Source: Streptomyces sp. NBC_00539
GTDB taxonomy: Bacteria; Actinomycetota; Actinomycetes; Streptomycetales; Streptomycetaceae
DNA: 64,000 nucleotides
Reading direction: 5' to 3'
NCBI RefSeq assembly: GCF_036346105.1
Contig: NZ_CP107811.1
Location: forward strand, 1,860,001-1,924,000
Part shown: positions 5,084-25,190 of the stretch, one piece after another
How the letters are laid out: every line of letters starts with the position of its first letter
Numbering within the stretch: position 1 is the first letter of the stretch
Notes under the pieces: generated by a model
What the model was told of the DNA's origin: nothing
Databases searched by the model: none
The model's input: only the letters and a program-made list of their open reading frames with translations
Position numbers and translations under genes: made by a program

Positions 5084-5129
5084 GAGGTCCCGCGGGAGCT
5101 GCCGAACGGCCTGCGTGTCGCCCGTCACA

Positions 5130-5192
5130 TACGAATCGAGGCGGCGGGAGCTCCTCCAGCCACATGTGTCAAAGTGTGACTGTCGATTCGTA
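5130..5192. promoter_or_regulatory. Inverted repeat TACGAATCGA / TCGATTCGTA flanking the LuxR promoter
   Basis: A perfect 10-bp inverted repeat, 5130-5139 and 5183-5192, separated by 43 bp. The right copy ends 22 nt before the start codon of the LuxR-type regulator. Between the arms lie CACATGTG and GTCA-N5-TGAC palindromes. The arrangement suits autoregulation by a dimer that loops DNA. Confidence 0.6.
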
Positions 5193-5213
5193 AGACGAGG
5201 GGGTCACTGCGCG

Positions 5214-6266
5214 ATGGCAGCGGGCGATGGCAGGGACGGCATCCAGTCGGCCGACAGGGTGTTCGCTCTCTATCAGGAGCTGCGCCTGCGCGGGGTGTCC
5301 GACTTGGGCGACGTCTCCCGCGAACTCGGCCTGGCCCCCGAGGAGTACGAGCGGCGGCGGGCCGAACTGATCGAGCTCGGCCTGATCGTGCCGACCGGGA
5401 CCACCCACGCCACGCGCGCCGACCTCCAGGCCGGTACCTGGGAGTCCGCGGCGGACGCCGTCGCCGTGGTGGACCCCGAGATCGCCCTGCTGCGCATGCT
5501 GAGACGGGAACGTGAGCGGCTGCGCGAGCACCTGGACGAGTCCGACCGGGCGTACGGCTCGCTCGAAACGCTGGTCGGCACGTTCCTGCGGCCCGGTTCG
5601 CTGAGCGGCTCCGAGGTCGAGGTGGAGATCCTCGACGACTACGGCCGGATCCAGCAGGTGCTGGAGGACATCACGGACGTCATCCAGTACGACCTGGCCT
5701 CGATGCACGTGACGGCCCTCGTCCGCGAGGTCGCCGACCGGGTCCTCAGCCGCGACCGGCGCCAGATCGACAACGGCGTGCGCATCCGCGCCATTTACCA
5801 CCAGCGCATCACCACCTCGCCGGAGGCGACGGAGATGCTGCGCCGGCGGGTCGAGGCGGGCGTCGAGATCCGCATGTCCCCCGCCGTCCCCATGAACATG
5901 ATCATCGCGGACCAGCAGTTCGCCGTGCTGCCCGTCCACCCGGAGGACCGGTCGGCCGGCGCGATCCTCGCCCGCGGCCCGGCACTCGTCCGCTCCTACC
6001 GGGCGCTGTACGAGCACTGCTGGCACGCGGCCACACCGTACGGCGACGACGCAGCCCCCGAGGTCGGCGGCGACGGGCTGTCCGAACAGCAGCGGGCCGC
6101 ACTCAAGATGCTCGCTTCCGGCATGAAGGACGAGAAGGTCGCCCGGACGCTCGGCGTCTCGCTGCGCACGGTCAGCCGCATGCTGTCCGAACTGATGCAG
6201 GAGATGGGGGCGTCGAGCCGGTTCGAGGCCGGCGTGCGCGCCCAGCGCCTCGGCTGGCTGGACTGA
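5214..6266 (+). CDS. LuxR-type (HTH) transcriptional regulator with TrmB-like N-terminus
   Basis: A 350-aa regulator. Residues 10-70 look like a winged helix (ADRVFALYQELRLRGVSDLGDVSRELGL) of the TrmB type. A central domain of about 150 residues contains repeated histidine/arginine motifs reminiscent of phospholipase-D-like TrmB sensor domains. Residues 285-345 form the LuxR HTH (LSEQQRAALKMLASGMKDEKVA, then LGVSLRTVSRMLSELM). No response-regulator receiver is present, so it is not a classical phosphorylated regulator. ATG 5214 follows ACGAGGGGG. It is divergent in function from its Fur neighbour, has its own inverted-repeat promoter and faces the 24-codon gene across a shared terminator. It is a candidate controller of the cluster to its right. 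Confidence 0.85.
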   Translation: MAAGDGRDGIQSADRVFALYQELRLRGVSDLGDVSRELGLAPEEYERRRAELIELGLIVPTGTTHATRADLQAGTWESAADAVAVVDPEIALLRMLRRERERLREHLDESDRAYGSLETLVGTFLRPGSLSGSEVEVEILDDYGRIQQVLEDITDVIQYDLASMHVTALVREVADRVLSRDRRQIDNGVRIRAIYHQRITTSPEATEMLRRRVEAGVEIRMSPAVPMNMIIADQQFAVLPVHPEDRSAGAILARGPALVRSYRALYEHCWHAATPYGDDAAPEVGGDGLSEQQRAALKMLASGMKDEKVARTLGVSLRTVSRMLSELMQEMGASSRFEAGVRAQRLGWLD

Positions 6267-6664: not shown

Positions 6665-7999
6665 TTAGGCTGGCGATCCGGCCTTCTCGACCCTCCAGGA
6701 GAGAGGCGTCGGCGAGGCAGGAGCGTGCCGCCGCTCCTGCCTCACTCGTTCCCGGTGCACGCCGATCGTCCGCGTCTCCCGCTCCTCGGCCAGCGCCCCC
6801 CGGTACACGTCCAGCGTCCGCGCGGCGGCGGCCCCCCAGCTCAGCGACCGCGCGTGGACCACCGCCGCCTCCCCCATCGCGGTACCCGCCCCGGGGCGCT
6901 CGACGAGGTGGCGCAGCCTCCGCGCGTACGCGGCCGGATCGTGGCCGTCCACGAGCATCCCCGTCACCCCGTCCCGGACCGCGGTCGGCAGACCGCCGAC
7001 CGCCGCCGCCAGGACCGGGGTCCCGCAGGCCTGGGCCTCCAGGGCGACCAGCCCGAACGACTCGCTGCGCGAGGGCACCACGAGGACGTCCGCCGCCCGG
7101 TACCACTCGGCCAACTCCCGCTGCGGCACCGGCGGGCAGAGCCGCAGTACGTCCGCCACACCCAGCTCGCGCGCCAGCTCCCGGGCCGCGTCGCGGGGCC
7201 CGGCACCCGAATGCCCGCCCACCACGGGGACGACGATCCGCGAGCGCAGCCCCGGAACCGCCGACAGCAGCTCGGCGATCGCCCGCACCATGACGTCGGG
7301 GCCCTTGAGGGGCTGGATCCGGCCCGCGTACATCGGGACGAACGCGTCCACCGGCAGACCGAGCCGGGCCCGCGCCGCCGCCCGCCCCCGGCCCGGCCCG
7401 AAGGTGGCGAGGTCCACGCCCGGCCGGACGACCTCGGTCCGGCGGGCGCAGGCCCCGTACAGCTCCCGCAACGCCCGGGCCTCGTCGGCCGTGTTGGCGA
7501 TGAGCCGGTCCGCCGAACCGGCCACTTGGTGCTCGCCCCGGATCCGCAGCTCGGGCTCGGGCGGGTCCCCGTCGGCGAGGGCGGCGTTCTTCACCCGGGC
7601 CAGGGTGTGGGCGGTGTGCACGAGGGGGATCCGCCGGCCGGCGGCGGCGATCCGGCCGGCCAGCCCGGAGAGCCAGTAGTGGGAGTGGACCAGGTCGTAG
7701 CGCCGGTCCTCTTTGAGCAGCGCCAGCGAGAACGGCAGCACCAGCCCCGGCATGGCCTCCTTGGGGAGCGCCGCGCGCGGACCGGCGGGCAGGTGGCGGA
7801 CCTGTACGCCCGGGGCCAGGTCGACCCGGGCCGGTCCCTCCTCGCCACGGCACCGGGTGTACAGGTCGACTTCGACGCCGTGTTCCGCGAGGGCCCGGGA
7901 CAGCTGGACCATGTAGACGTTCATGCCGCCCGCGTCCCCGGTGCCGGGCTGGTGCAGCGGCGAGGTGTGGACGCTGAGCATGGCGACGCGCAGGGACAC
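6665..7999 (-). CDS. MshA-like GT4 glycosyltransferase (D-inositol-3-phosphate glycosyltransferase paralogue)
   Basis: A 444-aa GT-B glycosyltransferase. The N-terminal block VAMLSVHTSPLHQPGTGDAG, followed by GMNVY, is the signature of MshA, which transfers GlcNAc from UDP-GlcNAc to inositol 3-phosphate in mycothiol synthesis. Also present are the LVHSHYWLSG block, YAGRIQPLKGPD and the nucleotide-sugar motif SRSESFGLVALEAQACGTPV (E-X7-E). The C-terminal 35 residues are extra. The genuine mshA of Streptomyces is expected elsewhere in the core genome, so this is probably a cluster-specific paralogue. GTG start with AGGAG, 25 nt after the stop of the MetRS-like gene: same operon. Confidence 0.85.
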   Translation of the reverse strand: MSLRVAMLSVHTSPLHQPGTGDAGGMNVYMVQLSRALAEHGVEVDLYTRCRGEEGPARVDLAPGVQVRHLPAGPRAALPKEAMPGLVLPFSLALLKEDRRYDLVHSHYWLSGLAGRIAAAGRRIPLVHTAHTLARVKNAALADGDPPEPELRIRGEHQVAGSADRLIANTADEARALRELYGACARRTEVVRPGVDLATFGPGRGRAAARARLGLPVDAFVPMYAGRIQPLKGPDVMVRAIAELLSAVPGLRSRIVVPVVGGHSGAGPRDAARELARELGVADVLRLCPPVPQRELAEWYRAADVLVVPSRSESFGLVALEAQACGTPVLAAAVGGLPTAVRDGVTGMLVDGHDPAAYARRLRHLVERPGAGTAMGEAAVVHARSLSWGAAAARTLDVYRGALAEERETRTIGVHRERVRQERRHAPASPTPLSWRVEKAGSPA

Positions 8000-8025
8000 G
8001 TGGATCTCCTAGCGGAAGGGGGGGT

Positions 8026-9597
8026 TCAGAAGCCGAACACCGGTCCCGAGGGCGGCGCCAGCCGGGTGCCGGGTGGGGGCGGTACGAGCGCCTCGGCCGA
8101 GACGGGCGGTCCCGGTACGGTTCCCAGGGCCGAGGCCAGCCGGTCAGCGCCCTCCGGCATCACCGGCCGCGCCCACGCGCTGAGCGCCCGGGCGACCGCC
8201 AGTTGCGCCGACAGCGCCGGCAGGTGGCGCCCGTCCGCGGCGGGGCGGAGTACGCCGTGTGCGTTGACATGGCCGAAGTCGCCGACCGCGCGGACCACTT
8301 CGTCGAGCAGGGCGACGGCCCGGCGCGGATCGAAGGCGTCCGGTCCGTACGCTTCGCGCAGGTCCTCCACGGCGCGCAGCAGCCGTCGTTCCAGGACCTG
8401 CCAGCCGGTGCCGCCGGGGAGCGCCGCCGGGGCCAGGCCGCCGCACTGCGCGCGGACGGCGGCGAACAGCCGCGAGAGCCAGCCGTTCCAGTTCTCGTCC
8501 AGCTCCCGGCGGGCCGCCGCCAGTCCGTCGGTGCGGAAGTGCGTGCGCCGGCCGAGGGGGCGGGCCGCCAGGACGTGGCGGCGCAGGGTGTCGGACCCGT
8601 ACTCGGTGATCAGGTCCAGGGCCCACGCCCCGCGGCCGGCGCCGGGCCCGTCGTCCTCGATGACGAACGCCTCGTTGACGCAGAAGTCCTGCGCCGGCTT
8701 CACACCACGGGCGGACAGCAGGACCGGCAGCAGCACGGCGTGGCAGAAGGCGTGGCCGAACCCGCAGAAGTGGACGGCGCGTTCGGGCATCGAGCGGTCG
8801 TCGCCGTAGCCGAAGAGGTGCATCGCGGCGGTTTCGAAGCACCCGTCGATCCGGTGCTCGGGGAAGCCGTCGACGGGCACGGGCAGACCCCACTCCGCCG
8901 GGTTCGTCACCGCGACGTCCGGCAGGCCGTCCTCCAGCAGCGACTCGCACAGCGCGGCCAGCCTGGGCGGCAGGCCGGCATCGGCCCAGTAGGCGGCCAG
9001 GGCGTCGCGGAACGGCTCCAGCGGGATGTACAGGCGCCGGCAGCGCCGGAGTGCCGCGGGCGTGCCGCACCGGGCGCACCGCGCGCCGAGGAGGTCGCCG
9101 CCGTCGTTGGGCCGGGCGCACTCGTGGCACGTACCACCCTCACTCGGCGCCGCGCAGTGCGGACACGAACCCGTCACGTGCGCCCCGTACAGCCAGCGCC
9201 CGCACGGTTCGCAGTACGGCATCAGGCGCGTGCGGGCGGCGATGACGCCCTCCGCGTGGAGCCGGCGGAACAGCTCCGCCATCCGGCGGCCGTAGTGCGC
9301 GTCCTGGCGGGGCCGCACGATGCGGTCGAACTCGATCCCCGAGCGCAGCCAGTCCGCGGTGATCGCCTCCCGGAACCCCTCGGCGACCTCCTCCGGCTTG
9401 CGCCCCGCGCGCAGGGCCCGGACGTGGACGGAACTGCTGTGGTCGGCGGTGCCCGTGGTGAACAGGACCGGTTCGCCTTCGGCGCGCAGGTACCGCGACA
9501 GGACGTCGGCGGCGACGTACGGTCCCGCGAGGTGGCCGACGTGGAGTTCGCCGTGGGGGGCGGGCGGGGTCGCGGTGATCCAGACGGGGGTGCTCAA
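8026..9597 (-). CDS. Methionyl-tRNA-synthetase-like amino acid ligase without a KMSKS loop
   Basis: A 523-aa class I aminoacyl-tRNA-synthetase homologue. The HIGH motif is present as HVGH (residues 19-22) after ITATPPAPHGELH, and the MetRS zinc ribbons remain as four CXXC pairs (YCEPC, CPHC, CHEC, CARC). Where MetRS has KMSKS, this protein has a stretch around IEDDGPGAGRG before ALDLITEYGSDTLRRHVL, so the ATP-binding lysines are gone. The anticodon-binding domain is short and diverged. By analogy with MshC (a CysRS paralogue) it could ligate an amino acid to an amine. No ATG fits; TTG 9597 is spaced 5 nt from AAGGAGG and was chosen. First gene of the operon with the MshA-like gene. Confidence 0.82.
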   Translation of the reverse strand: MSTPVWITATPPAPHGELHVGHLAGPYVAADVLSRYLRAEGEPVLFTTGTADHSSSVHVRALRAGRKPEEVAEGFREAITADWLRSGIEFDRIVRPRQDAHYGRRMAELFRRLHAEGVIAARTRLMPYCEPCGRWLYGAHVTGSCPHCAAPSEGGTCHECARPNDGGDLLGARCARCGTPAALRRCRRLYIPLEPFRDALAAYWADAGLPPRLAALCESLLEDGLPDVAVTNPAEWGLPVPVDGFPEHRIDGCFETAAMHLFGYGDDRSMPERAVHFCGFGHAFCHAVLLPVLLSARGVKPAQDFCVNEAFVIEDDGPGAGRGAWALDLITEYGSDTLRRHVLAARPLGRRTHFRTDGLAAARRELDENWNGWLSRLFAAVRAQCGGLAPAALPGGTGWQVLERRLLRAVEDLREAYGPDAFDPRRAVALLDEVVRAVGDFGHVNAHGVLRPAADGRHLPALSAQLAVARALSAWARPVMPEGADRLASALGTVPGPPVSAEALVPPPPGTRLAPPSGPVFGF

Positions 9598-9902
9598 TGG
9601 GACCTCCTTGACGCTGTGGTGCACAATGCTCAGCGAGGCTCGAAAGGGGTGGAGCTGGTTAAGGATTCCTGCGGATCGTCGAATGGCATTCTTCGCTCGG
9701 TCTCCCTGCGGCAAGTGGGACGCGCATACGGCCGAATTCACGACTCCGGACTTCCCGGTGACAATGCGGATGCCGGGTCCCGATAAGCCTGCCAGAGGAA
9801 ACAAGCGGCGGGGCCGGGAAGTGCTTGCGCATTCACGCCGTTGCGCGGACACGCCAAAGGGGGTGCCTTGCGGCCCCTCCGGGCGCCCAACAGGCTGGTC
9901 CC
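9598..9902. promoter_or_regulatory. Divergent promoter region between MetRS-like and PIG-L genes
   Basis: 305 bp that are less GC-rich than the flanking genes. It must drive the minus-strand MetRS-like/MshA-like operon and the plus-strand PIG-L gene. I see no exact copy of the CGATTCGTA element; a looser stretch ACGGCCGAATTCACGA lies near 9727. No convincing small gene was found here. Confidence 0.5.
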
Positions 9903-10646
9903 ATGGAACACTTCGCGACCGATCCCATAGACCGAAGCGCCCCGGAATCCCTGCTCGTGGTGGCCGCGCACCCGGACGACATCGAGTTCTGCGTCAGCGG
10001 CACGGTCATGCGGTGGATCGCCCAGGGCACGACCCGGGTGACGTACTGCATCGTGACGGACGGCGGCGCCGGCGGATACGACGAGCAGCTGCCCCGCCAG
10101 GCGATGGGGGACCTCCGCCGGGCCGAACAGGTGCATTCCGCCAAGCGCAGCGGGGTGGACGACGTCCGCTTCCTCGGATATCCCGACAGCTACGTCGAGG
10201 CCGGCGTCGAGCTGCGCCGCGACCTGTGCCGGGTGATCCGTCAGGTCCGTCCGCAGCGCGCCGTGATCCCCAGTCCCGAGATCAACTGGGCGCGCGTCGC
10301 CGACCTGCACCCCGACCACCGGGCGGTCGGTGACGCGGCCCTGCGGGCGATCTACCCGGAGGCGCGCAATCCGTTCGCCCACCCGTCCCTGCTCAAGGAG
10401 GAGGGGCTGGAGCCGTGGATCGTGCCGGAGCTGTGGCTGATGACGGGGCCCACCCCGAACCAGTACATCGATGTGACGTCGGTCTTCGACCGCAAGGTGG
10501 AGGCGCTGCGCATCCACACCTCGCAGACGGCGCACTTCGATGATCTGGCGGGGCTGCTGCGGCAGTGGCTGGGTGAGCACGCGACGGCCGCGGGGCTGCC
10601 CGCGGGACGCATGGCGGAGGCCTTCCAGGTCGTCAGGATCGACTGA
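9903..10646 (+). CDS. PIG-L/LmbE-family deacetylase (MshB/Mca-like)
   Basis: A 247-aa zinc hydrolase of the PIG-L superfamily, which removes N-acetyl groups from GlcNAc-inositol (MshB) or cleaves mycothiol conjugates (Mca). The metal-binding AHPDDIEF motif is at residues 22-29, and HPDHRAVGDA supplies the third ligand. The length is shorter than MshB or Mca (about 290 aa). ATG 9903 has only a weak ribosome-binding site. It sits divergently from the MetRS-like/MshA-like operon, which matches the substrate logic of GlcNAc transfer, deacetylation and aminoacylation. Confidence 0.85.
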   Translation: MEHFATDPIDRSAPESLLVVAAHPDDIEFCVSGTVMRWIAQGTTRVTYCIVTDGGAGGYDEQLPRQAMGDLRRAEQVHSAKRSGVDDVRFLGYPDSYVEAGVELRRDLCRVIRQVRPQRAVIPSPEINWARVADLHPDHRAVGDAALRAIYPEARNPFAHPSLLKEEGLEPWIVPELWLMTGPTPNQYIDVTSVFDRKVEALRIHTSQTAHFDDLAGLLRQWLGEHATAAGLPAGRMAEAFQVVRID

Positions 10647-10680
10647 GTCCCGGTCCCCGCGCCGCGTGGGCGACCGGGAC
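10647..10680. terminator. Hairpin between convergent genes
   Basis: GTCCCGGTC (10647-10655) pairs with GACCGGGAC (10672-10680), immediately after the PIG-L stop, between that gene and the minus-strand operon end at 10725. Confidence 0.6.
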
Positions 10681-10724
10681 CGGGACCGTGAGGCGTGCCG
10701 TGCGCCGCGCCGGTCCCCCCGGCG

Positions 10725-11390
10725 TCAGCGGTAGATGAGCAGTTCCTCTTCGACGGCGCCCGCCAGTTCGTAGCGGGTCCCGACCAGCGGGCGGCCCGAG
10801 TACAGGCGGATCAGCGTCGGCGCGTCGCCCCGGAACCGGGCGGCGGGACGGCCGTCCACCGCGTTGCCCAGTACCAGCGCCTCGTGCTGCCCGGCGACGT
10901 CCGCCAGCAGCCGGGGCGTTCCGCGCCTGCGGCTCGTCGTGCGGAGCAGGGGCAGGGAGAGCTCCAGGGCGGTCCCGCCGTAGGCCCCCGGCTCGCCGAG
11001 CGCCTCCCGTACGTCGCCCGCGTGGATCCACTCCCCCAGCGCCACCGCGTCCAGGGTGCCGTCACCGGCGGCTATGGCCGCACCGGCCTCGGTCAGGCCC
11101 CGCTCCAGCTCGTCCAGGATCCCGGCCACGGGCCGGTCGGCGCGTTCCGCGACGTCGGCGGCGTTGGCGGCGGGGAGGAAGACCCCCTCCTCCAGCCGGC
11201 CCTCCACGATGCGGACGAGGGCGGCCGCGCAGTGCGCGAGCACGTCCCGCACCGTCCACCCCGGGCAGGCGGTGCGCAGCGCGTACGCGGCCGTCGGCGT
11301 CCGGCGCAACAGCGGGAGCAGGGCGTCCCGTTCGGTGCGCAGGAGGCGGTCCGGGAGCCAGGGGTCGCGCATGTCCTCTACGACTGACAT
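10725..11390 (-). CDS. Maleylpyruvate-isomerase/DinB-fold protein (mycothiol-dependent family)
   Basis: A 221-aa four-helix-bundle protein. ACPGWTVRDVLAHCAAAL is the hallmark of the mycothiol-dependent maleylpyruvate isomerase N-terminal domain; a second histidine (EWIHAGDVREALG) matches the metal-binding histidine of the fold. Members use mycothiol as cofactor or transfer it to acceptors. ATG 11390 lies 4 nt after the ahcY stop, so it is the last gene of the ahcY/metK operon. Its presence next to MshA-, MshB- and ligase-like genes fits a thiol cofactor or pseudodisaccharide acting in the pathway. The exact reaction is unknown. Confidence 0.8.
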   Translation of the reverse strand: MSVVEDMRDPWLPDRLLRTERDALLPLLRRTPTAAYALRTACPGWTVRDVLAHCAAALVRIVEGRLEEGVFLPAANAADVAERADRPVAGILDELERGLTEAGAAIAAGDGTLDAVALGEWIHAGDVREALGEPGAYGGTALELSLPLLRTTSRRRGTPRLLADVAGQHEALVLGNAVDGRPAARFRGDAPTLIRLYSGRPLVGTRYELAGAVEEELLIYR

Positions 11391-11394
11391 GGCA

Positions 11395-12801
<1,407 letters not shown>

Positions 12802-12845
12802 GGGGGACGCTCCTTGAACGTGGGGGAAGGCGGGGGTCACCGGGC

Positions 12846-14065
<1,220 letters not shown>

Positions 14066-14069
<4 letters not shown>

Positions 14070-14314
14070 GCCCGGCCCACCTCCAGCGGGAAGAAGTGCT
14101 TCTCGATGGCGCCGAGGGTGCGGATCTCGTCGACCTCCAGGGTCTCCATCTGGATCGGCTTTCCGCTGTGCTGCTCCAGCAGGAAGACGAACTCCACGAA
14201 GGACAGGGAGTCGATCAGCCGGTGCTCGATGAGGTCCAGGTCGGGAGCGATGTCGTCGAGCTCCGAGTGGCGGGCGAGGAGCCAGTTCTTCAGCTGCTGC
14301 AGACCGTTCGACAT
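14066..14314 (-). CDS. Free carrier protein from an internal start of the fused frame
   Basis: ATG 14314 inside the fused frame is preceded by AAGGAGAA at good spacing and would give an 82-aa stand-alone carrier protein. The phosphopantetheine-accepting serine is Ser36 (I-D-S-L). The acidic surface helix ([12 protein letters not shown]) is typical. It is the likely acceptor of the amino acid activated by the ligase at 14829-15689, and its stop overlaps the metK start. Whether the free form, the fusion or both exist must be tested. Confidence 0.75.
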
Positions 14315-14827
14315 GGTGGTTCTCCTTGGGGAAGTGGTGCCTGTGGAGGCTCGGGTTGCTTGTACGGGTCCGGCTGGGCCGGGCAGGGGCCGCGGCAGGG
14401 GCGAGCCGGGCTCCAGGACGGGGGCCGCGACGGCCACCGCGTAGTCCACGTCGTGGCTGATGGACACGGTGATCGCGATGATCCCCGAGTCCGCGGCCAT
14501 GACGGCCGCCGCACGGTGGAGTTCGACGAGCGGCCAGCCGCCCTCGCAGCGCCTCACGACGATGTCCCGCCAGGGCAGGAACCTGCCGCCGACGCGGAGG
14601 GTCTTGAACGCCGCTTCCTTGGCGGCGATCCGGCCGCACAGGCTCAGCACGTCGAGCCTGGTGGAACAGCGGCAGTCGGCGAGTTCGCCGGGGGTGAGCA
14701 TCCGCTCGAAGAAGTCCTCGCCGTACTCGGTGAGGAGCCGGCGGACGCGGGTGACGGACACGATGTCCATGCCGAGGTTCGCCCATCCCATCACGCCCGC
14801 CGGAGGGGAGACGGGTCGGGTCGGCAC
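14066..14827 (-). CDS. Holo-ACP synthase fused in frame to an acyl/peptidyl carrier protein
   Basis: One uninterrupted 253-codon frame encodes two proteins usually made separately. Residues 13-135 are an AcpS-type phosphopantetheinyl transferase ([44 protein letters not shown]). A Pro/Thr-rich linker (about residues 136-171) leads to a carrier protein with the attachment serine in DSLSF. No stop separates them, so translation of the transferase must run into the carrier protein. GTG 14827 directly follows the ligase stop but lacks a good ribosome-binding site; ATG 14791 is an alternative. The carrier part also has its own start (next entry). Confidence 0.85.
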
Positions 14828-14828: not shown

Positions 14829-15689
14829 TCAGATCGCCGGCCCGGCCGCGTTCGCCCGCAGGACCGCGGCCGTAGCCGCCTCCCAGCTGCCGTGGCGCCT
14901 GGTGAGTGCGGACAGCCAGCGTTCCAGGCCGAAGGCGACGCAGCTGGTGAACGCCGGGCCGCCGCCGGACGCGAGCGGGATGTCGCACCGGTCGCCGAAG
15001 AAGTTGCGGTGGGTGTTGACCGAGGCGATCGCGAGGTCCTCGTACAGGAACTCGTGCTTGACGGGTGTCAGCCGCTGGAGGACCGCCTTGGAGCTGCCCT
15101 TGTCGAAGAAGGGGTCACAGGCGGCCTCCTTGCGCAGCGGCACGTCCAGGGCCTCGGCGAAGGAGGTGATCCGCCCGGTGAAGGACGCGAGGTGCGCCTC
15201 GGCGTGTTCGCGGGTGCCGATGGCGACGATCTCACGCATCCGGAAGCCCAGTTGGCGGCGGAGCCCTTCGTAGTGCTCCTCCTTGCGGAAGCACCATCCG
15301 ACCACGGTGACGAGTTCGTCGTCGGCGGCCTCGCGGCCCTGGTGGTCGATGTACACGGCGTAGCACGACGCCGAGGGGAGGCCGAGCGCGGCCGGCTGCA
15401 ACGCGTCGCACGGGAAGCAGCCGGTGTCGGTACAGAAGTCGCTGGTCGCTCTGGCGTCCAGGTTCAGGGGGGCCGCGACGACGGCCTGGTGGGGGAAGTT
15501 GTCGTAGTAGTCGAGCCGCGCCAGATCGGCGGCCGGCAGCAGCGGGGGCATGGTCATCGGGCGGGCACCGGCCCGGACGCCCCAGCTCTCGAAGGTGTCG
15601 TCGAGGAGCCGCAGCAGGGCGGTTCCCTCGGGGCCGAGGGACGGCAGGCCCTGGGTCGGGGCGGGGGTCGCGGTGGTCGTGACGGTCAT
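14829..15689 (-). CDS. Amino acid:[carrier protein] ligase (atypical class II seryl-tRNA-synthetase-like)
   Basis: A 286-aa enzyme with the catalytic core of class II aminoacyl-tRNA synthetases but no tRNA-binding arm. Characterised relatives activate glycine or alanine with ATP and load it on a carrier protein. Two cysteines (Cys108 in PSASCYAVY, Cys249 in FTSCVAFGLERW) and the glutamates in FRKEEHYE fit the family's zinc-site pattern; motif 3 is FGLERW. It starts at ATG 15689 and ends one base before the transferase/carrier frame, so ligase, carrier protein and activating transferase form a complete loading module. Confidence 0.85.
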   Translation of the reverse strand: MTVTTTATPAPTQGLPSLGPEGTALLRLLDDTFESWGVRAGARPMTMPPLLPAADLARLDYYDNFPHQAVVAAPLNLDARATSDFCTDTGCFPCDALQPAALGLPSASCYAVYIDHQGREAADDELVTVVGWCFRKEEHYEGLRRQLGFRMREIVAIGTREHAEAHLASFTGRITSFAEALDVPLRKEAACDPFFDKGSSKAVLQRLTPVKHEFLYEDLAIASVNTHRNFFGDRCDIPLASGGGPAFTSCVAFGLERWLSALTRRHGSWEAATAAVLRANAAGPAI

Positions 15690-15722: not shown

Positions 15723-16616
15723 TCAGACGACGGGCAGCACGTCGTCGGTGAAGATCCCGGTCTTCAGGAAGAAGCCGAGGGGCTTGCGGATGGTCTTGCG
15801 CTCGAAGGGGCGGCGCCGCTCGTCGGCGACCAGTGCGTTGCGCAGGGCCAACGGGTCGGCGATCCCGGCGTCGCGGTAGACGTGGGGGTTGTAGAGGGAG
15901 TTGACGCTGTAGACCACGTAGCGCTTGAGGTAGGCCTCCACCTCGGCGAGCCGTGCGGCGGAGACGCTGTCGCGCATCCGGTGGAAGAGCAGGGACACGA
16001 GTTCGCGGCCGAAGGCGATGTGCCGGGACTCGTCCTGGTGGTGGATGCGGTTGACCTCGCGGATGGTGTGGCACAGCGAATCGTCCTGCGCCATACGGGT
16101 GTTGTAGTGGTCCACGAGCTCTTCGAAGAACAGGATCCGGGCGAAGACCAGGAAGTTCTCCACCTCCGGCTCCCAGGCGGAGTCGGCGCGCATGGCGGTG
16201 GATCCGTAGATCTTGTCGCCGTAGCGTCGGCAGAACTCGGCGAAGAACCACATGTGTTCGTTCTCTTCGCCGATGAAGTGGTGGAAGAAGTCGGACGGGA
16301 CCTCGAAGCCGGGCATGTGGATCCGGCCGACCACCTCGATGAGCAGTTCGCGGATGCCGTGGACGTTGAGGCTGTAGAAGTTGATGCTCTCCCACTTGGA
16401 CAGGCGGCGGATGGTCTCCTCGCCGAGCTCCTCGTAGAAGGGGGTGCCGTAGACCGTGAGCAGTTCGGGGGTCATCCACATCCGGCCTTCTTCGAGCTTC
16501 TCGGGCCAGTCGAACTGCTGGTAGGGGTTGTAGTACTCCTCGATGGAGCGGGAGCTGAGCCGGTCCAGGACTTCCAGGAACCGGTCGGTGACGGGCAGGG
16601 GGGCGCTGACGCCCAT
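15723..16616 (-). CDS. AurF-type diiron N-oxygenase
   Basis: A 297-aa ferritin-like non-haem diiron oxygenase of the p-aminobenzoate N-oxygenase family (AurF, CmlI), which oxidises amines to hydroxylamine, nitroso or nitro groups. The iron ligands are visible as Glu118/His121 in GEENEH, Glu165-166/His170 in FFEELVDHY, and His192-193/Glu196/His199 in HHQDESRH. CmlI acts on a carrier-protein-bound amino acid, which makes the loading module next door a likely substrate source. ATG 16616; the gap to the ligase gene is 33 nt. Confidence 0.88.
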   Translation of the reverse strand: MGVSAPLPVTDRFLEVLDRLSSRSIEEYYNPYQQFDWPEKLEEGRMWMTPELLTVYGTPFYEELGEETIRRLSKWESINFYSLNVHGIRELLIEVVGRIHMPGFEVPSDFFHHFIGEENEHMWFFAEFCRRYGDKIYGSTAMRADSAWEPEVENFLVFARILFFEELVDHYNTRMAQDDSLCHTIREVNRIHHQDESRHIAFGRELVSLLFHRMRDSVSAARLAEVEAYLKRYVVYSVNSLYNPHVYRDAGIADPLALRNALVADERRRPFERKTIRKPLGFFLKTGIFTDDVLPVV

Positions 16617-16660: not shown

Positions 16661-16742
16661 TGCCTCGGGTCTCGGGGCGCAGGGCCTCCCGGCCTCGGGG
16701 CGTCAGGGCCTCAGGGCGTTAGGACCTCAGGGCCTCAGGGCC
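16661..16742. repeat. Imperfect CTCAGGG-type short tandem repeats
   Basis: Short units of the type GGCCTCAGGG, CTCGGGG and CGTCAGGG recur about nine times between the diiron oxygenase and the upstream methyltransferase, including the methyltransferase stop. It may be a decayed hairpin array or slippage product; it breaks the tight spacing of the operon. Confidence 0.55.
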
Positions 16743-17781
16743 GGACTTCGTAGACGGCGTTGACCGGGGTCTCGGTCGCGCGGCGCCAGCGGGTGAAGCC
16801 GGCCTCCTCGGCGATGGCGCGGAAGGCCTGCTCACCGGAGTGGTTGCCGAGGGCGTGGGGTCCGCGCTGGGCGACGGCCACGGGCAGGCACATCACGGCG
16901 GACAGCGCCATGAACATGCGGGCGGCGGGGGTCTGGGTATCGATGTCCGCGGGCGAGACGTTGGACTCGACCAGCATCCAGGTGCCCTCGGCGTCCAGCG
17001 ACTTGTGCACGTGCTGGGCGGCGGCGACGGGGTCGCCCATGTCGTGCAGGGCGTTGAAGAAGGTCACCAGGTCGTAGCCGCTGCCGGGGTAGTCGTCGGC
17101 GGAGGCGACCTCGAAGACGACGCGGTCGCCCAGCCCGGCCTCGTCGGCGAGCTGACGGGCGAGCGCGATGGCCTCTTCGGAGTAGTCGAAGCCGTGCACG
17201 GTGGCCCCGGGGAAGGCCTTGGCGATCAGCAGCGTGGTGTGTCCGACTCCGCAGCCGACGTCGGCGACGGTGCCGCCCGCGGCCAGCTTGGCGGTGACCC
17301 CCTCCAGCGCCGGGAGCCAGTCGGGGACGAGCCGGTGCTCGTAGGCGGGCTGGAAGAAGCTGCCCATGCCGGTGTCGAGGGCGGGGTCGTGTTCCGCCCA
17401 GCCGACTCCGTCGCCGGTGCGGTACGCGTCCACGAGCAGGTCCTCGGTGGCGTAGAGCGCCTTGAGGGCGGTGAAGAACCCGGCGGCGAAGGTGACGGAT
17501 CCCGGGTCGGCCAGTACGGGGACGTGGGCGGCCGGCAGGGCGTACGTGCCGGTGTCCGGGTCGCGTTCGACGTACCCGGCGCTGAGCTGGGCGTGCAGCC
17601 ACTCCTCGGCGTAGCGGGGGCTGATCCCGGTGCGTCCGGCGAGCGCGGCCGGGGTCAGCGGGCCGGTCTCGGCGAGCGCGCGGTAGAGGCCGAGGCGCTC
17701 GCCGAGGGCGACGGTCAGGCCGCGCACGGCAGCGCCGGCGTCGCTGATGACGCGCTGGTGGAACTCGTCGGTGGTGCTCAT
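16735..17781 (-). CDS. SAM-dependent methyltransferase with N-terminal winged helix
   Basis: A 348-aa methyltransferase. Residues 1-85 form a winged-helix/dimerisation domain (LGLYRALAETGPLTPAALAGRTG), and the SAM site is GTVADVGCGVGHTTL (171-185) followed by GFDYSEEAI. The layout matches the Rv2258c-like group rather than plant-type O-methyltransferases. ATG 17781 overlaps the stop of the next upstream gene (ATGA), so both methyltransferases are co-translated. Substrate unknown; the pathway context suggests methylation of an N-oxygenated or carboxyl group. Confidence 0.85.
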   Translation of the reverse strand: MSTTDEFHQRVISDAGAAVRGLTVALGERLGLYRALAETGPLTPAALAGRTGISPRYAEEWLHAQLSAGYVERDPDTGTYALPAAHVPVLADPGSVTFAAGFFTALKALYATEDLLVDAYRTGDGVGWAEHDPALDTGMGSFFQPAYEHRLVPDWLPALEGVTAKLAAGGTVADVGCGVGHTTLLIAKAFPGATVHGFDYSEEAIALARQLADEAGLGDRVVFEVASADDYPGSGYDLVTFFNALHDMGDPVAAAQHVHKSLDAEGTWMLVESNVSPADIDTQTPAARMFMALSAVMCLPVAVAQRGPHALGNHSGEQAFRAIAEEAGFTRWRRATETPVNAVYEVRP

Positions 17782-18617
17782 GCCGCTCTCACCCCGGTGG
17801 TCGGAAGGTCACAGGTGAACAGGAAGGAACGGGGGATCCGCGGGACGCTGCGCGCGGGCACCGGGTAGGGCCAGCGGCCGAAGTCGGCGCCCGGCTCACC
17901 GGGCTGGCGCACTTCGCGCACGGCCCAGCCGCAGTCGGCCAGCAGCTGCTCGGGGGTCTCGGTGCCGAACAGCCACGGGTTCCCGTCCTCGGCGAGGCAG
18001 TTGAGGAAGGGGCGGGAGAGCGGGTTCTCCAGCGCGGACTTGCTGATGACGTCGCCCAGCAGGACCGAGCCGGGCGCCGACTGCGTGCCGAGCGTGGAGA
18101 TCAGGTTCCGTACGGCGGGCTCCGGAAGGAAGAAGAGCAGTCCCTCGACCACCCACAGCACCGGCTCGTCGCTGTGCCAGCCGGCCTCCTTGAGGGGGCC
18201 GGTCCAGTCCTGGGTGAGGTCGACCGGGACGGTGACGCGGGTGCGCCCGGCCGGATCGGGCTCGTCCGCCAGCATCTGCGCCTTGGCGTCCAGCAGGGCG
18301 GGGCGGTCGAGTTCGTAGACGGTGACGCCGTCGGGCCACGGCAGGCGGTAGAAGCGGGTGTCCATGCCGGCGGCGAGGAAGACGACCTGGCGGATGCCGC
18401 CTTCCTCGACGGCCGAGACGATGGCCCGGTCGAGGTACGTGGTGCGGATGGCGAGGAACGGCACGGTGCCGGCCCCCGCGTAGCGCTCCAGGAGTTCGAA
18501 GCCGATCGTGTCGGCGACGGTGCGCGCGTGGGGATCGGCGAACAGCCGGTCCTCGCGGTCGGTCTCCAGGGCCCGCGCTGCGGCGGTCCACTGGGCGGTG
18601 CGGGATACGGCCTCCAC
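17778..18617 (-). CDS. Leucine-carboxyl-methyltransferase-like (TIGR00027-type) methyltransferase
   Basis: A 279-aa methyltransferase. The atypical SAM motif AAGMDTRFYRL (82-92) and YELDRP (101-106) define the LCMT/TIGR00027 group, which methylates carboxylates and hydroxyls in several antibiotic pathways. It overlaps the following methyltransferase by 4 nt. Two methyltransferases of different families in one operon imply two distinct methylations. Confidence 0.87.
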   Translation of the reverse strand: MEAVSRTAQWTAAARALETDREDRLFADPHARTVADTIGFELLERYAGAGTVPFLAIRTTYLDRAIVSAVEEGGIRQVVFLAAGMDTRFYRLPWPDGVTVYELDRPALLDAKAQMLADEPDPAGRTRVTVPVDLTQDWTGPLKEAGWHSDEPVLWVVEGLLFFLPEPAVRNLISTLGTQSAPGSVLLGDVISKSALENPLSRPFLNCLAEDGNPWLFGTETPEQLLADCGWAVREVRQPGEPGADFGRWPYPVPARSVPRIPRSFLFTCDLPTTGVRAA

Positions 18618-18649: not shown

Positions 18650-19153
18650 TCAGACGGCGGAGCGGGCCCGTACGACCGGGTCCTGCGCGGCTGCGGGGTC
18701 GGCGGCGCGGTCGGCGGGCCGGCGCCGGAAGATGCTGTGCAGCACCATGCTGAAGACGACGGTCCCGTCGCGGTCCACGAGCGTGCAGCGGGGCTGCACG
18801 ACGCCGGTGCCCGGATTGAACGGGGAGGGGCGCGAGCCGAGGATCTCCACGCGGGCGGTGAGCACGTCACCGGGGCGCACCGGCCGCAGGTAGCGGACTT
18901 CGTCCACGCCGGGGGATCCGGTACAGGCGCTGTAGGCGAGCAGTCCGTCGACGTAGCGGCGCATGAACATCGAGGCGGTGTGCCAGCCGCTGGCGATCAG
19001 TCCGCCGAACGGCGATTCGGCCGCGAGCGCCGGGTCCGTGTGGAAGGGCTGCGGGTCGAAGCGCCGCCCGAAATCCAGCACCTCCTCGGCGGTGACGGTG
19101 ACGGTGCCCAGCTCGTGGACGTCACCGGTCCGGAAGTCCTCGAAGTAGCGCAT
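18650..19153 (-). CDS. MaoC-fold (hot-dog) dehydratase/hydratase-like protein
   Basis: A 167-aa single hot-dog domain protein. The hydratase-2 features are recognisable as ASGWHTASMFMRR and FDPQPFHTDPALA, where the Asp/His pair would be catalytic. Members hydrate or dehydrate acyl-CoA or acyl-carrier-protein thioesters, so a role on a carrier-bound intermediate is plausible. ATG 19153 was preferred over an upstream GTG because the family begins MRYFEDF-like. First gene of the operon behind the TTGACA promoter. Confidence 0.85.
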   Translation of the reverse strand: MRYFEDFRTGDVHELGTVTVTAEEVLDFGRRFDPQPFHTDPALAAESPFGGLIASGWHTASMFMRRYVDGLLAYSACTGSPGVDEVRYLRPVRPGDVLTARVEILGSRPSPFNPGTGVVQPRCTLVDRDGTVVFSMVLHSIFRRRPADRAADPAAAQDPVVRARSAV

Positions 19154-19196
19154 CACACGGCCCCTTTGACGGAGAGGAGTTTCTCTGGCGTGAACC

Positions 19197-19226
19197 AATC
19201 TACGAATCGCCCATTTATTTTGTCAA
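19197..19226 (-). promoter_or_regulatory. Consensus promoter for the MaoC-to-DinB operon with overlapping CGATTCGTA element
   Basis: On the minus strand TTGACA (19226-19221) is followed at 17-18 nt by GTAGAT/TAGATT (19203-19197), the best housekeeping-type promoter in the window. GCGATTCGTA (19210-19201) overlaps the -10 box, so a protein bound there would block or remodel the promoter. The region is markedly AT-rich. Confidence 0.75.
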
Positions 19227-19241: not shown

Positions 19242-20417
19242 TCAGGTTCCGGCCAGTGCCTGTTCGACGTCCCGCCACAGGTCATCGGGGTCCTCGATGC
19301 CGACCGACATCCGCACCAGCCCCGGACCGATACCGGCCCGGTCCAACGCCCGTTCGTCCAGCTCACGGTGGGAGGTGCTGGCGGGATGTGTCACCAGCGT
19401 CTCCACACCCCCCAGGGAGAGCGCCAGCCGCGCCAGCCGGACGCCCTCGACGAACACCCGTCCGGCCTCCCGGCCTCCGGCGAGCTCGAAGGAGAGCAGC
19501 CCGCCGCCGCCCGAGAGCACCTTGCGCGCCACGGCGTACGAAGGCCCTCCGGGGAGCCAGGGCCAGTGGACGGCGGTGACGGCCGGATGGGCTTCCAGCC
19601 GGGTGGCCAGCAGGCCGGCGTTGGCGCAGTGCTCGCGCATGCGCAGGGGCAGGGTGGCGATGCCGCGCAGGGTCAGCCAGGCCGCGAACGGGTCCGCGGC
19701 GGCGCCGAGTTCGACCGTACGCGGCCATATCCGGTGCCGGAGTGCGTCGTCGGCGAAGACGGCCGCCCCGCCGAGGACGTCGGAGTGGCCGGCGAGGTAC
19801 TTGGTGGTGGAGTGCAGCACGATGTCCGCGCCGAGTTCGAGGGGCCGGCACAGGACGGGTGACGCCAGGGAGTTGTCCACCGCGCCGATCACCCCGTGGC
19901 GGCGGGCGGCGGCCAGCAGGCCGGGTAGGTCGGGGACCCGCCCGGTGGGGTTGGCGATGGTCTCCAGCAGGAGCAGCCTGGTGCGCGGGCCCACGTGCGA
20001 CTCGAATTCGGCCACGTCGTCACCGCTGATGTAGCGGACCTCGACCGAGTAACGGTCGGCGAGGTCGGCCAGGGCCGCGTACGTCCCCCCGTACAGGCAC
20101 CGTTGGGCGATCACCTGGTCGCCGGGGCGCAGGAGCGCGAGCAGGACTCCGCTGATGGCACCCATGCCGGAGGCGAAGGCGAGGGCGGACCTGCCGCCTT
20201 CGAGGTCGGCGAGGGTGTGCTCCAGCGCGCGGACGGTGGGGTTGCCCCGGCGGCCGTACACGTACTGCCCGTCCGGGCCGGCCATCGCCTCCGCGAGCTC
20301 GGCGGCCGAGTCGAAGGCGAAGGCGGACGACTGGACGAGGGGGACGGAGAGCGGACGGCTGCCGTTGCCGTGAGGTGCGTTGACGACGTGCACGGCGCGG
20401 GTCCGGATGTCCTTCAT
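19242..20417 (-). CDS. PLP-dependent cystathionine gamma-lyase/synthase-family enzyme
   Basis: A 391-aa fold-type I PLP enzyme of the Cys/Met metabolism family. The Schiff-base lysine is in HSTTKYLAGHSD, the cofactor phosphate site in ASGMGAISG, and YGRRGNPTV binds the neighbouring active site. Candidate reactions are beta/gamma-elimination of cystathionine, homocysteine or methionine, or gamma-replacement making a C-S bond. With ahcY supplying homocysteine, removal of homocysteine is one option; building a sulfur-containing amino acid is another. ATG 20417 follows AGAGGAG at 5 nt. It has its own leader but the same direction as the MaoC operon. Confidence 0.85.
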   Translation of the reverse strand: MKDIRTRAVHVVNAPHGNGSRPLSVPLVQSSAFAFDSAAELAEAMAGPDGQYVYGRRGNPTVRALEHTLADLEGGRSALAFASGMGAISGVLLALLRPGDQVIAQRCLYGGTYAALADLADRYSVEVRYISGDDVAEFESHVGPRTRLLLLETIANPTGRVPDLPGLLAAARRHGVIGAVDNSLASPVLCRPLELGADIVLHSTTKYLAGHSDVLGGAAVFADDALRHRIWPRTVELGAAADPFAAWLTLRGIATLPLRMREHCANAGLLATRLEAHPAVTAVHWPWLPGGPSYAVARKVLSGGGGLLSFELAGGREAGRVFVEGVRLARLALSLGGVETLVTHPASTSHRELDERALDRAGIGPGLVRMSVGIEDPDDLWRDVEQALAGT

Positions 20418-20477
20418 GACGTCTCCTCTTGATGTCTTGGGGGATGGAGGTACGGGGGGACGGGGGGATACGGAAAA

Positions 20478-20515
20478 GGGGCCGCCCGACGTCCGGAAGG
20501 ACATCGGGCGACCCC
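20478..20515 (-). terminator. Hairpin after the MFS exporter gene
   Basis: GGGGCCGCCCGACGTCC pairs with GGACATCGGGCGACCCC around a short GGAA-containing loop, with two mismatches, 16 nt downstream of the exporter stop on the minus strand. Confidence 0.7.
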
Positions 20516-20530
20516 TGGCCGAGCGCCGTC

Positions 20531-21967
20531 TCACACGCCGGCCGTCTCACCCTGCGGCGCGGGCGCGGCGGCGGGCGCGGCGGCGGGCTTGTCGCTCTTC
20601 ATCGCGAGGAGCGTGACCAGGGCGCCCACGGCGGCGATGCCGGCGGCACCGAGGAACGCGGCGCCGAATCCGTCGGTGAGGGCGGGCAGGTTGCCCAGTT
20701 CACCGGCGCCCTGGGTGGTGGCGAGGGCGGTCAGTGCGGCGAGGCCGAGGGCCGAGCCCACGTTGTAGGTGGTGTTGACGATGCCCGAGGCCAGACCGGC
20801 CTGCTCCTGGGGGGCGCCGGACATCGCGGCCATCATCGCGGGGATGTACGCGAGCGCCATGCCGAGTGCGGCGACGAGGGAGGCGGGCAGGACGTCGACC
20901 AGGAAGGTGCCGGTCGGCTCGACCGCGGACAGCCACACCAGCCCGGCGGCGAGGGCGAGCAGACCTCCGGCGATCAGCGGCTTCGCCCCGAACCTGGCCA
21001 TGAGACGGGCGGTGATGGCCGTCATGAAGATCATCAGCAGGACGGTCATGGGCAGCAGCGCGGCCCCGGAGGCGAAGGCGCCGTAGTGCAGCACCTGCTG
21101 GAGGTAGAGGTTGAGGAAGTACCACATCGGGATCCAGGCCGCGCCGAGCAGCGTCATCGCCAGGTTGGCCGAGCCCAGACGCGGGATCCGCCAGACGCCG
21201 AGCGGCATCAGCGGCTCCCGTACGGTGCGCTGGATCACGAAGAAGAGGGCGAGCAGGGCTGCCGCGGCGACCAGTTCGAGCACGGTGGCGGTGGCTCCCC
21301 AGCCCACTTCGGGGGCCCGGACCACGGCGAAGACGGCGAGCGCGAGACCGCCGGTGACGGCGACGGCGCCGAGCACGTCCACCGCACCGCGGCGGGCCTG
21401 GACGGCGGGCAGCAGCTTGGTGGCGGCGAGGGTCAGGACGCCGATCGGGATGTAGATGATGAACACCCAGGGCCAGCTGACCCACTGGGTGAAGACGCCG
21501 CCGAGGAAGACGCCCACGGTACCGCCGGCCGGGGCGGCGGCGCCGTAGAGGGCCATGGCCTTGCCGAGTTCCTTCGGGTTGTGGCCGAAGAGCATCATCA
21601 GCAGGGTCATGGCGGAGGGTGCGATGAGCGCGCCGCCGACGCCCTGGACGGCGCGGCCGACGATCTCGACCCAGGCGGTCTGCGCGGCGGCGGCGAGCAC
21701 GGAGCCGACGATCATGGTCGCCCAGCCGGCGGCGAAGATCCTGCGCGCCCCGAAGAGGTCGGAGAGCCGGCCGCCCAGCAGGAGCAGCCCGCCGAAGACG
21801 ATGACGTAGGCGTTGAAGACCCACTGCAGCTCGCCTTGTGAGAAGCCGAGGTCCTTCTGCATCTCGGGGAGTGCGACCCCGATGATCGAGGTGTCCATGA
21901 TGACCATGAACTGGGCGGTGGCGAGCACGGCAAGTGCCCACCAGCGCCGGGGATTGACGGTTGACAT
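20531..21967 (-). CDS. DHA2-type MFS exporter
   Basis: A 478-aa, 14-helix drug:proton antiporter of the EmrB/QacA group. Motif A is GGRLSDLFGARRI, motif C-like residues occur in GGTVGVFLGGVF, and MDTSIIGVALP is the helix-1 signature. The tail is a low-complexity Ala/Pro stretch. It probably exports the product of the cluster. The ATG at 21967 has GGAGAGGGG upstream. Its promoter carries two CsoR-type palindromes, unlike any other cluster gene, suggesting metal- or persulfide-dependent export. Confidence 0.9.
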   Translation of the reverse strand: MSTVNPRRWWALAVLATAQFMVIMDTSIIGVALPEMQKDLGFSQGELQWVFNAYVIVFGGLLLLGGRLSDLFGARRIFAAGWATMIVGSVLAAAAQTAWVEIVGRAVQGVGGALIAPSAMTLLMMLFGHNPKELGKAMALYGAAAPAGGTVGVFLGGVFTQWVSWPWVFIIYIPIGVLTLAATKLLPAVQARRGAVDVLGAVAVTGGLALAVFAVVRAPEVGWGATATVLELVAAAALLALFFVIQRTVREPLMPLGVWRIPRLGSANLAMTLLGAAWIPMWYFLNLYLQQVLHYGAFASGAALLPMTVLLMIFMTAITARLMARFGAKPLIAGGLLALAAGLVWLSAVEPTGTFLVDVLPASLVAALGMALAYIPAMMAAMSGAPQEQAGLASGIVNTTYNVGSALGLAALTALATTQGAGELGNLPALTDGFGAAFLGAAGIAAVGALVTLLAMKSDKPAAAPAAAPAPQGETAGV

Positions 21968-21990
21968 TGCCCTGACCCCTCTCCTACACA

Positions 21991-22005
21991 TACCCCTAGG
22001 GGGTA
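21991..22005. promoter_or_regulatory. CsoR-type operator 1, TACCCCTAGGGGGTA
   Basis: A near-perfect palindrome with the C-tract/G-tract architecture of CsoR/CstR operators, 24 nt upstream of the exporter start codon. Its centre is 36 bp from that of operator 2. Confidence 0.75.
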
Positions 22006-22024
22006 CCTTCGCGGAGCAACGTAG

Positions 22025-22043
22025 CATACCCCCTGGGGGTATG
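22025..22043. promoter_or_regulatory. CsoR-type operator 2, CATACCCCCTGGGGGTATG
   Basis: A 19-bp palindrome perfect around a central T, matching the CsoR/CstR operator pattern (compare ATACCCTACGGGGGTAT of B. subtilis). It lies between the exporter and the divergent 22098 gene, so it could govern both. Confidence 0.8.
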
Positions 22044-22097
22044 TAAGAGCGGAACCTGGGATGCGGCTCGAGCCGCGACCCGAGCCGAGGGGCGATC

Positions 22098-23874: not shown

Positions 23875-23920
23875 GCGGCCGTCACCCGCTCCGGTGGACG
23901 GCGGCCGGCCCGGGCCGGAG

Positions 23921-25117: not shown

Positions 25118-25190
25118 GTCTCTCCCGTCGGAGGCGGATTGAGGGGACGCGAGGGAGGTGGGAGACAGGTGGGGCGGAGCCGCGAGGGTC

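Follow-up and report, generated by a model that had tools for sequence, protein, structure and literature searches.

A gene cluster of Streptomyces and Kitasatospora with an MshA-like glycosyltransferase, a MetRS-like protein of PyrN type and an AurF-like oxygenase, and its probable relation to the mycothiol sugar core

Introduction

Is glucosaminyl-inositol (GlcN-Ins), the sugar core of mycothiol, used outside mycothiol, and what does the fold of a methionyl-tRNA synthetase (MetRS) do after its ATP loop has been lost and its pocket rebuilt and conserved? Both questions are raised by a gene cluster of Streptomyces sp. NBC_00539. The window, i.e. the whole stretch of 64,000 nucleotides that was analysed (G000:C1:1860001-1924000 in a genome of 7.5 Mb on two contigs), includes at 6665-11390 the genes for an MshA-like glycosyltransferase, a MetRS-like protein, a PIG-L/LmbE-family hydrolase and a protein of the MDMPI/DinB fold. 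All four are intact open reading frames that lie together, as a preliminary description of this DNA had it; as a unit, however, they form only one end of a much larger cluster, common to Streptomyces and Kitasatospora. Its genes point to a small-molecule product and to probable synthesis or use of the mycothiol sugar core. The reading tentatively preferred here, with the chances still somewhat against it, is a small-molecule pathway that combines supply by the MshA-like protein, an N-oxidised amino acid, a GlcN-Ins-bearing handle and a MetRS-like protein descended from PyrN-type ligases. The four genes are as follows.

6665..7999, minus strand: MshA-like glycosyltransferase, predicted to use UDP-N-acetylglucosamine (UDP-GlcNAc) and inositol phosphate (TIGR03449 528.9 bits, cut-off 462.5)
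8026..9597, minus strand: MetRS-like protein of PyrN type, HIGH motif present, KMSKS-type loop gone, Cys/His-rich pocket (tRNA-synt_1g 166 bits)
9903..10646, plus strand: PIG-L/LmbE-family hydrolase (PIG-L 94 bits)
10725..11390, minus strand: MDMPI-family protein (MDMPI/DinB fold), likely mycothiol-dependent (TIGR03083 84 bits, cut-off 50)

The start of the MetRS-like gene was taken as the TTG at 9597, which is preceded by AAGGAGG. The MshA-like gene starts with GTG at 7999, 26 bases past the MetRS-like stop, and has its own AGGAG. The PIG-L gene is divergent from the MetRS-like gene, and the MDMPI-family gene is next after it.

Organisation and distribution of the cluster

Relatives were collected by searching 296 genomes with the MetRS-like protein and contigs with a ten-row alignment, which gave 60 loci; the same alignment was searched against 393 Streptomyces genomes. 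Of the 60 loci, 52 (L068-L119) were compared, the remaining eight showing at most 36% identity. A MetRS-like protein with at least 53% identity is encoded at 47 of the 52, which are referred to below as the 47 loci. Genes of the relatives were called with a GC-frame script rather than a gene finder.

The gene order is LuxR, MshA-MetRS-(SDR-PrpF-AsnB)-PIG-L-MDMPI-SahH-(MetH-PfkB)-MetK-ACP-PPTase-amino acid:carrier protein ligase-AurF-methyltransferases-MaoC-PLP enzyme-MFS, where SDR is a short-chain dehydrogenase/reductase, ACP an acyl carrier protein, PPTase a phosphopantetheinyl transferase, PLP pyridoxal phosphate and MFS a major facilitator superfamily protein, and the genes in parentheses are missing from the window. 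The window thus has about 15 cluster genes, as compared with about 20 in most relatives.

The MetRS-like gene is accompanied by an MshA-like gene at 43 and a PIG-L gene at 40 of the 47 loci, by SDR, PrpF-like and AsnB genes at 39 each and by a LuxR gene at 45, these counts covering the DNA available per locus and several misses being due to short contigs. At the 35 loci whose DNA extends 8 kb or more in each direction, the MshA-like gene is present in 32, PIG-L in 31 and SDR, PrpF-like and AsnB in 30 each. The grouping of the MetRS-like, MshA-like and PIG-L genes is not a matter of chance. The label Kitasatospora is based on the named locus L108 (= G542) and a shared genus code (g85), in which G636 is matched by L110, deposited as Saccharothrix sp. 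ST-888. With a MetRS-like protein at 52.7% identity, L110 falls outside the 47; it carries MshA-like, PIG-L, SDR, PrpF-like, AsnB and LuxR genes.

A close MetRS-like gene (E < 1e-250) was found in 32 of the 393 Streptomyces genomes (~8%; the present genome included, and two being reduced loci, see below), nearly always with the remaining cluster genes alongside in the neighbourhoods read. In one further genome, that of S. diastatochromogenes (L117 / G341:C1:4274150-4275497), the MetRS-like sequence lies in two pieces in different frames, through either an assembly error or a broken gene.

SDR, PrpF-like and AsnB genes were not found at the locus in the window, S. lavendulae CCM 3239 (L070), G038 (L041), G658 and G683. 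Most relatives in which that part was read have genes for MetH and a PfkB kinase between those for SahH and MetK; the window leaves no space there for either and gave no MetH match at all, and MetH is absent from the G683 cluster as well. The half of the cluster that includes AurF lies 28-43 kb from the MetRS-like gene in G004, G015, G143 and G162, with the same gene order in the three read, and this ruled out the view, gained from 20 kb regions, of compact clusters without that half. AurF has an orthologue at 69-100% identity in 30 of the 36 genomes searched (16/19, 10/11 and 4/6), and 29 of these 30 also have the MshA-like gene, the exception being G683 with PIG-L and no MshA-like gene. The six genomes in which AurF was not found are G103, G297, G377, those of L103 and L118, and G642; the last is of the cupin type, and the other five have MetRS and LuxR genes without the inner cluster, three of them with an MFS gene adjoining that for MetRS. 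No description of the cluster, or of its way of combining PyrN-type, AurF-type and mycothiol-type genes, was found in the open-licence literature searched.

MshA-like, PIG-L and MDMPI-family proteins

Besides passing the TIGR03449 cut-off, the MshA-like protein matches 3c48, which we take to be MshA of C. glutamicum, with 367 bits. In an alignment including 3c48, N27, K80, Y108, T132, R152, R227, K232, E313 and E321, presumably the residues that contact inositol phosphate and UDP-GlcNAc, are kept in all 48 full-length cluster copies, that of the window included (47 distinct, with one duplicate pair; three partial matches were dropped). The protein very probably makes GlcNAc-inositol phosphate, and a dedicated supply of GlcNAc-inositol for the cluster is likely, because the MshA cut-off is passed and the presumed substrate contacts are kept. 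In a midpoint-rooted tree of 70 rows, 21 cluster copies fall on one side and 49 canonical MshA copies on the other (SH-aLRT 96), the midpoint root and two long-branch cluster rows (L108, partial, and L238) making the age of the split unsure.

A canonical mycothiol set is encoded elsewhere in the genome, with 671 bits for MshC, 662 for MshA, 414 for MshB (L004) and 477 for Mca. The cluster MshA-like and PIG-L genes are therefore extra copies, and the idea that they are the sole mycothiol genes, named earlier as a ground for doubt, is refuted. The model of MshC, a paralogue of the cysteinyl-tRNA synthetase (CysRS) type (TIGR03447), matched two places in the genome, neither of which is within the window.

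The PIG-L protein reached 32.1 bits with the MshB model TIGR03445 (cut-off 224.35) and is not MshB by that cut-off. Of the GlcN-Ins-type pseudodisaccharide synthesis claimed at first, the glycosyl transfer is very probable, whereas the deacetylation is doubtful. The motifs HPDD and HPDH are present in 49/49 PIG-L copies (48 distinct), and for the orthologue in G038 the closest solved structures are those of LnmX (5bmo, the nearest in the PDB) and diacetylchitobiose deacetylases. The MDMPI protein, described at first as typical of mycothiol users, is likely to depend on mycothiol; TIGR03083, whose cut-off it exceeds, is a family annotated as mycothiol-dependent, and the His/Glu/His columns H53, E120 and H123 are constant in 28/28 copies (27 distinct). 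In G683, the cluster without an MshA-like gene, PIG-L and MDMPI remain and the genome has a single, partly matched MshA, a state that weakly favours supply as the role of the MshA-like protein and a pathway step as that of PIG-L.

MetRS-like protein

By fold, sequence and tree, the nearest kin of the MetRS-like protein are PyrN-type proteins, and on this sequence evidence it is a PyrN-type ligase by descent. (The label "cupin type" of tree rows L053 and L055 and of motif-count row L115 is not backed by a query cupin gene.) It is neither a near paralogue nor a recent copy of the presumed housekeeping MetRS (G000:C1:1375871), which gave 105 bits; PyrN-type kin are nearer. In the formation of hydrazines, PyrN activates amino acids without the use of tRNA. 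The lysine of its KMSKS-type loop is essential, the K458A variant being inactive (PMC8664883).

That loop is absent from the window protein and from all readable Streptomyces relatives (0/47), and the pocket aspartate is also lost in 45 of these 47. The Streptomyces pocket is rebuilt with Cys and His, as placed by alignment to the presumed pocket positions of MetRS rather than from coordinates; C252, H275, C277, H281 and C284 are candidates for a metal site. In the Kitasatospora-type proteins, both the loop and the aspartate are kept (5/5). The role given to the window protein in the preliminary description is unproven, because a part normally needed for amino acid activation has been lost. 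The Kitasatospora proteins seem equipped to form aminoacyl adenylates, and it is possible that they aminoacylate GlcN-Ins. As PyrN serves acceptors other than tRNA and the MetRS-like and MshA-like genes are neighbours nearly everywhere, an ancestral ligase that made aminoacyl-GlcN-Ins is a live, if unlikely, hypothesis.

Distant MetRS-like proteins with both the HIGH and KMSKS-type motifs altered are encoded in S. smaragdinus (L118, 10001-11494) and G103 (L052, 14552-16003), next to a LuxR-type gene (42-45% identity) and with the rest of the cluster missing.

Downstream enzymes and proposed pathway

The remaining cluster genes of the window are listed below.

5115..6266, plus strand: LuxR-type (GerE) regulator adjoining the cluster, with a relative at 45 of the 47 loci
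11395..12840, minus strand: S-adenosylhomocysteine hydrolase SahH, S-adenosylmethionine (SAM) cycle
12846..14069, minus strand: S-adenosylmethionine synthetase MetK, SAM cycle (TIGR01034 535 bits)
14066..14827, minus strand: AcpS-type PPTase and ACP in a single open frame
14829..15689, minus strand: amino acid:carrier protein ligase resembling seryl-tRNA synthetase (SerRS) (PRK07080 128 bits, below the cut-off of 357; 3mey)
15723..16616, minus strand: AurF-like diiron N-oxygenase (PF11583 123 bits)
16735..17781, minus strand: SAM methyltransferase with an Rv2258c-like N-terminal domain
17778..18617, minus strand: LCM/TIGR00027-type methyltransferase (211.6 bits, cut-off 93.6)
18650..19198, minus strand: MaoC-like (de)hydratase
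19242..20534, minus strand: Cys/Met-metabolism PLP enzyme, nearest to methionine gamma-lyase and below that cut-off
20531..22354, minus strand: predicted MFS exporter at the far end of the cluster (nearest DHA2 model 215 bits, just below the cut-off of 230)

The PPTase and ACP, which share one frame in the window, are encoded by separate, overlapping genes in some relatives (e.g. L106). The SerRS-like ligase matches Bll0957 (3mey), an amino acid:[carrier protein] ligase, over 238 residues (E 7e-23), and three residues that we take to be Zn ligands are kept in 19/19 full-length copies; the two are alike in sequence and Zn ligands, but the cluster ligase sits in a biosynthetic cluster with AurF. 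The glycine-nitronate cassette of enteromycin carboxamide and akazaoxime employs a carrier-bound amino acid, a diiron N-oxygenase and a methyltransferase (PMC9967187). Another possible AurF-type reaction is the hydrazone oxidation described for AurF-like Dob3 (PMC12154687). The set of AurF, carrier protein, ligase and methyltransferase in the cluster resembles the enteromycin-type cassette, with the difference that loading would be by the SerRS-like ligase and not by a nonribosomal peptide synthetase (NRPS). The gene types of an O-methyl nitronate cassette are present in the window, as recognised from sequence.

In lincomycin biosynthesis, LmbV, LmbE and LmbF are responsible for mycothiol attachment, glucosamine amide hydrolysis and remnant processing, respectively. 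At the family level, the cluster is similar to the lincosamide system of lincomycin and celesticetin (LmbV, LmbE, LmbF, LmbG) in bringing together a DinB/MDMPI-fold protein, a PIG-L amidase-family protein, a PLP enzyme, methyltransferases, a carrier protein and an MFS protein. It differs by the addition of the MshA-like and MetRS-like proteins and by the family of the PLP enzyme. By this analogy, MDMPI, PIG-L and the PLP enzyme would fit lincosamide-style mycothiol use as well as they fit the pathway first proposed. The likeness to mycothiol biosynthesis (MshA/MshB/MshC/MshD) consists in an MshA-like protein that passes the MshA model, with PIG-L and an amino-acid-ligase fold adjoining; the differences are a PIG-L protein other than MshB, a PyrN-like ligase in place of a CysRS paralogue, and the presence of canonical MshA, MshB and MshC elsewhere in the genome.

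In the reading preferred here, the MshA-like protein would supply GlcNAc-inositol phosphate to a pathway beyond canonical mycothiol, which is the most strongly indicated step. The SerRS-like ligase would charge the ACP with a small amino acid, probably glycine, which would be N-oxidised by the AurF-like enzyme and methylated, with SahH and MetK, joined in many relatives by MetH and the PfkB kinase (probably an adenosine kinase), presumably topping up SAM. The pathway would use a small-molecule handle containing GlcN-Ins, be it mycothiol or an aminoacyl analogue; MDMPI would attach this handle, PIG-L cleave its glucosamine amide by hydrolysis and the PLP enzyme process the remnant, in the manner of LmbV, LmbE and LmbF, respectively. 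The MetRS-like protein, a ligase by descent, would act on an amine or hydroxylamine of the pathway. The Kitasatospora version has probably retained ATP-dependent amino acid activation, whereas that of Streptomyces, including the window, would work without the ATP machinery, probably as an acyl transferase or a product-binding protein. The product would be exported by the MFS protein.

Several points weigh against this proposal. All substrates, the product and the succession of reactions are inferred from sequence. The PIG-L protein is not Mca by cut-off either (27.9 bits with TIGR03446, cut-off 277.15), and therefore the LmbE-like step is assigned from family membership alone. The PLP enzyme is of the Cys/Met-metabolism type, whereas LmbF is of another PLP type. 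The cluster is not uniform, as no SahH, MetH or MetK was found at loci L101 and L106. Finally, the adjacency of the MshA-like and MetRS-like genes almost everywhere also suits the coupling proposed in the preliminary description.

Alternative explanations

According to that earlier proposal, the MshA-like and PIG-L proteins make GlcN-Ins and the MetRS-like protein stands in for MshC, attaching some amino acid, though not cysteine, at the amine of GlcN-Ins; the aminoacyl pseudodisaccharide would be a cofactor, carrier or end product. This is consistent with the intact MshA-like protein, the 26 bases between the two genes in the window, their sharing of a locus in 43 of the 47 relatives, and the loop and pocket aspartate of the five Kitasatospora-type proteins; moreover, PyrN-type relatives transfer amino acids to acceptors other than tRNA (PMC8664883). 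By the last point, however, a MetRS-like enzyme with a non-tRNA acceptor is already known. The loss of the loop motif in 47/47 and of the aspartate in 45/47 readable Streptomyces relatives speaks against the proposal. PIG-L is not MshB by cut-off, three loci keep the MetRS-like gene without the MshA-like or PIG-L gene, and GlcN-Ins can be obtained from canonical MshA and MshB, so that second copies do not prove a second use. A MetRS in the MshC position is thus possible, perhaps as the ancestral state; for the window it is not the best-supported reading, and the proposal as a whole is doubtful.

At the three loci just mentioned, NRRL S-455 (L093, G377), S. himastatinicus (L098, G297) and NBS 14/10 (L103), the LuxR, MetRS and MFS genes remain. 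MshA-like, PIG-L, SDR, PrpF-like and AsnB genes were not found at these loci, nor AurF in the genomes, and no second MshA was found in the two of these that were checked for it (G297 and G377). The reduced state needs two changes on the MetRS-like tree. In NRRL S-455 (L216, G377), two short pieces matching SDR lie between the MetRS and MFS genes at 9091-9282, and therefore the locus was once fuller. The ratio of nonsynonymous to synonymous substitution rates (dN/dS; Nei-Gojobori, five pairs) of the MetRS-like gene is 0.17-0.25 in four pairs with a reduced-locus copy, including 0.17 at dS 0.66 for S. himastatinicus versus NBS 14/10, and 0.19 in one full-locus pair. The NRRL S-455 copy showed dS 0.12 with a close full-cluster copy and dN/dS 0.25 with a more distant one; its reduced state may be recent and retention there mere delay. 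The protein seems to have a use beside an exporter and a regulator that is independent of the cluster MshA-like and PIG-L proteins. GlcN-Ins is still a possible partner at the reduced loci, because it is supplied by the canonical pathway.

It might then be proposed that the Streptomyces MetRS-like protein serves in self-protection or product sensing, binding or modifying the product or an intermediate together with the MFS and LuxR proteins. The trio kept without the inner cluster, AurF or a second MshA, the two changes on the tree, the SDR relics and the low dN/dS all point in this direction. However, there are only three such loci, one of them perhaps explained by delay; in full clusters the MetRS-like gene is in the biosynthetic run with the MshA-like gene and not beside that for MFS; the MFS protein reaches no cut-off of a named efflux family; and we know of no precedent for a MetRS-like protein in such a role. 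This explanation is considered unlikely.

Less probable again is a scheme in which the cluster's own MshA-like and PIG-L proteins make a dedicated GlcN-Ins carrier that the MetRS fold loads with an amino acid, using ATP in Kitasatospora and, in Streptomyces, a new Cys/His pocket without the loop, which may be metal-bound or may use a thioester donated by the ACP. If true, the scheme would add a further small-molecule carrier to ACPs, tRNAs and mycothiol, with an aminoacyl-tRNA-synthetase fold that no longer makes adenylates.

The least probable alternative is plain supply, in which the MshA-like protein serves only to raise the mycothiol pool against a reactive N-oxidised product of the kind to be expected from AurF chemistry, with PIG-L and MDMPI as detoxification enzymes and the MetRS-like protein as a tailoring ligase unrelated to them. 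The duplicate SAM-cycle genes are in the style of supply, and mycothiol dependence is part of the annotation of the MDMPI family. Against this, PIG-L is not Mca by cut-off, canonical Mca is encoded elsewhere, and PIG-L, with its motifs invariant, persists where the MshA-like gene is lost.

Hydrazine-type relatives and flanking genes

The cluster differs from the cupin-MetRS hydrazine synthetases PyrN, Spb40 and Tri28: no Zn cupin or lysine N-hydroxylase was found in the DNA available for the 47 loci (0/47 each) or in the window, and a hydrazine synthetase locus was excluded on this ground. The Streptomyces cluster protein further differs from these enzymes, and from standalone MetRS-like partners, in its altered KMSKS-type loop and pocket. 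An SDR 54% identical to that of the cluster is encoded at L050, L051 and L112, which are of the cupin type or similar to it. The sequences suggest that the MetRS-like and SDR genes came jointly from a hydrazine-type pathway.

Two other MetRS-like genes in the genome are of the hydrazine synthetase type (L058, G000:C2:120486-122054, and L059, G000:C1:367142-368734). In both, the MetRS-like part is in frame with a cupin-like stretch and a lysine/ornithine N-hydroxylase match is nearby; one lies beside NRPS-type sequence. They probably belong to hydrazine synthetase pathways.

Genes for a P450, a metalloprotease-like protein and an alpha/beta hydrolase (22699-26597) were rejected as members of the cluster, having no counterpart next to the MFS gene in the near relatives L213 and L214. 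On the flank at 70-2850 are a HAD-domain piece resembling a metal P-type ATPase, a CsoR-type metal-sensitive repressor, a BlaI-type repressor and an M48-type peptidase. A copper-binding product, suggested by the position of these copper-type genes alone, was set aside. Copper-type genes also border several relatives, and FUR-type and methyltransferase genes flank the cluster at 42 of the 47 loci.

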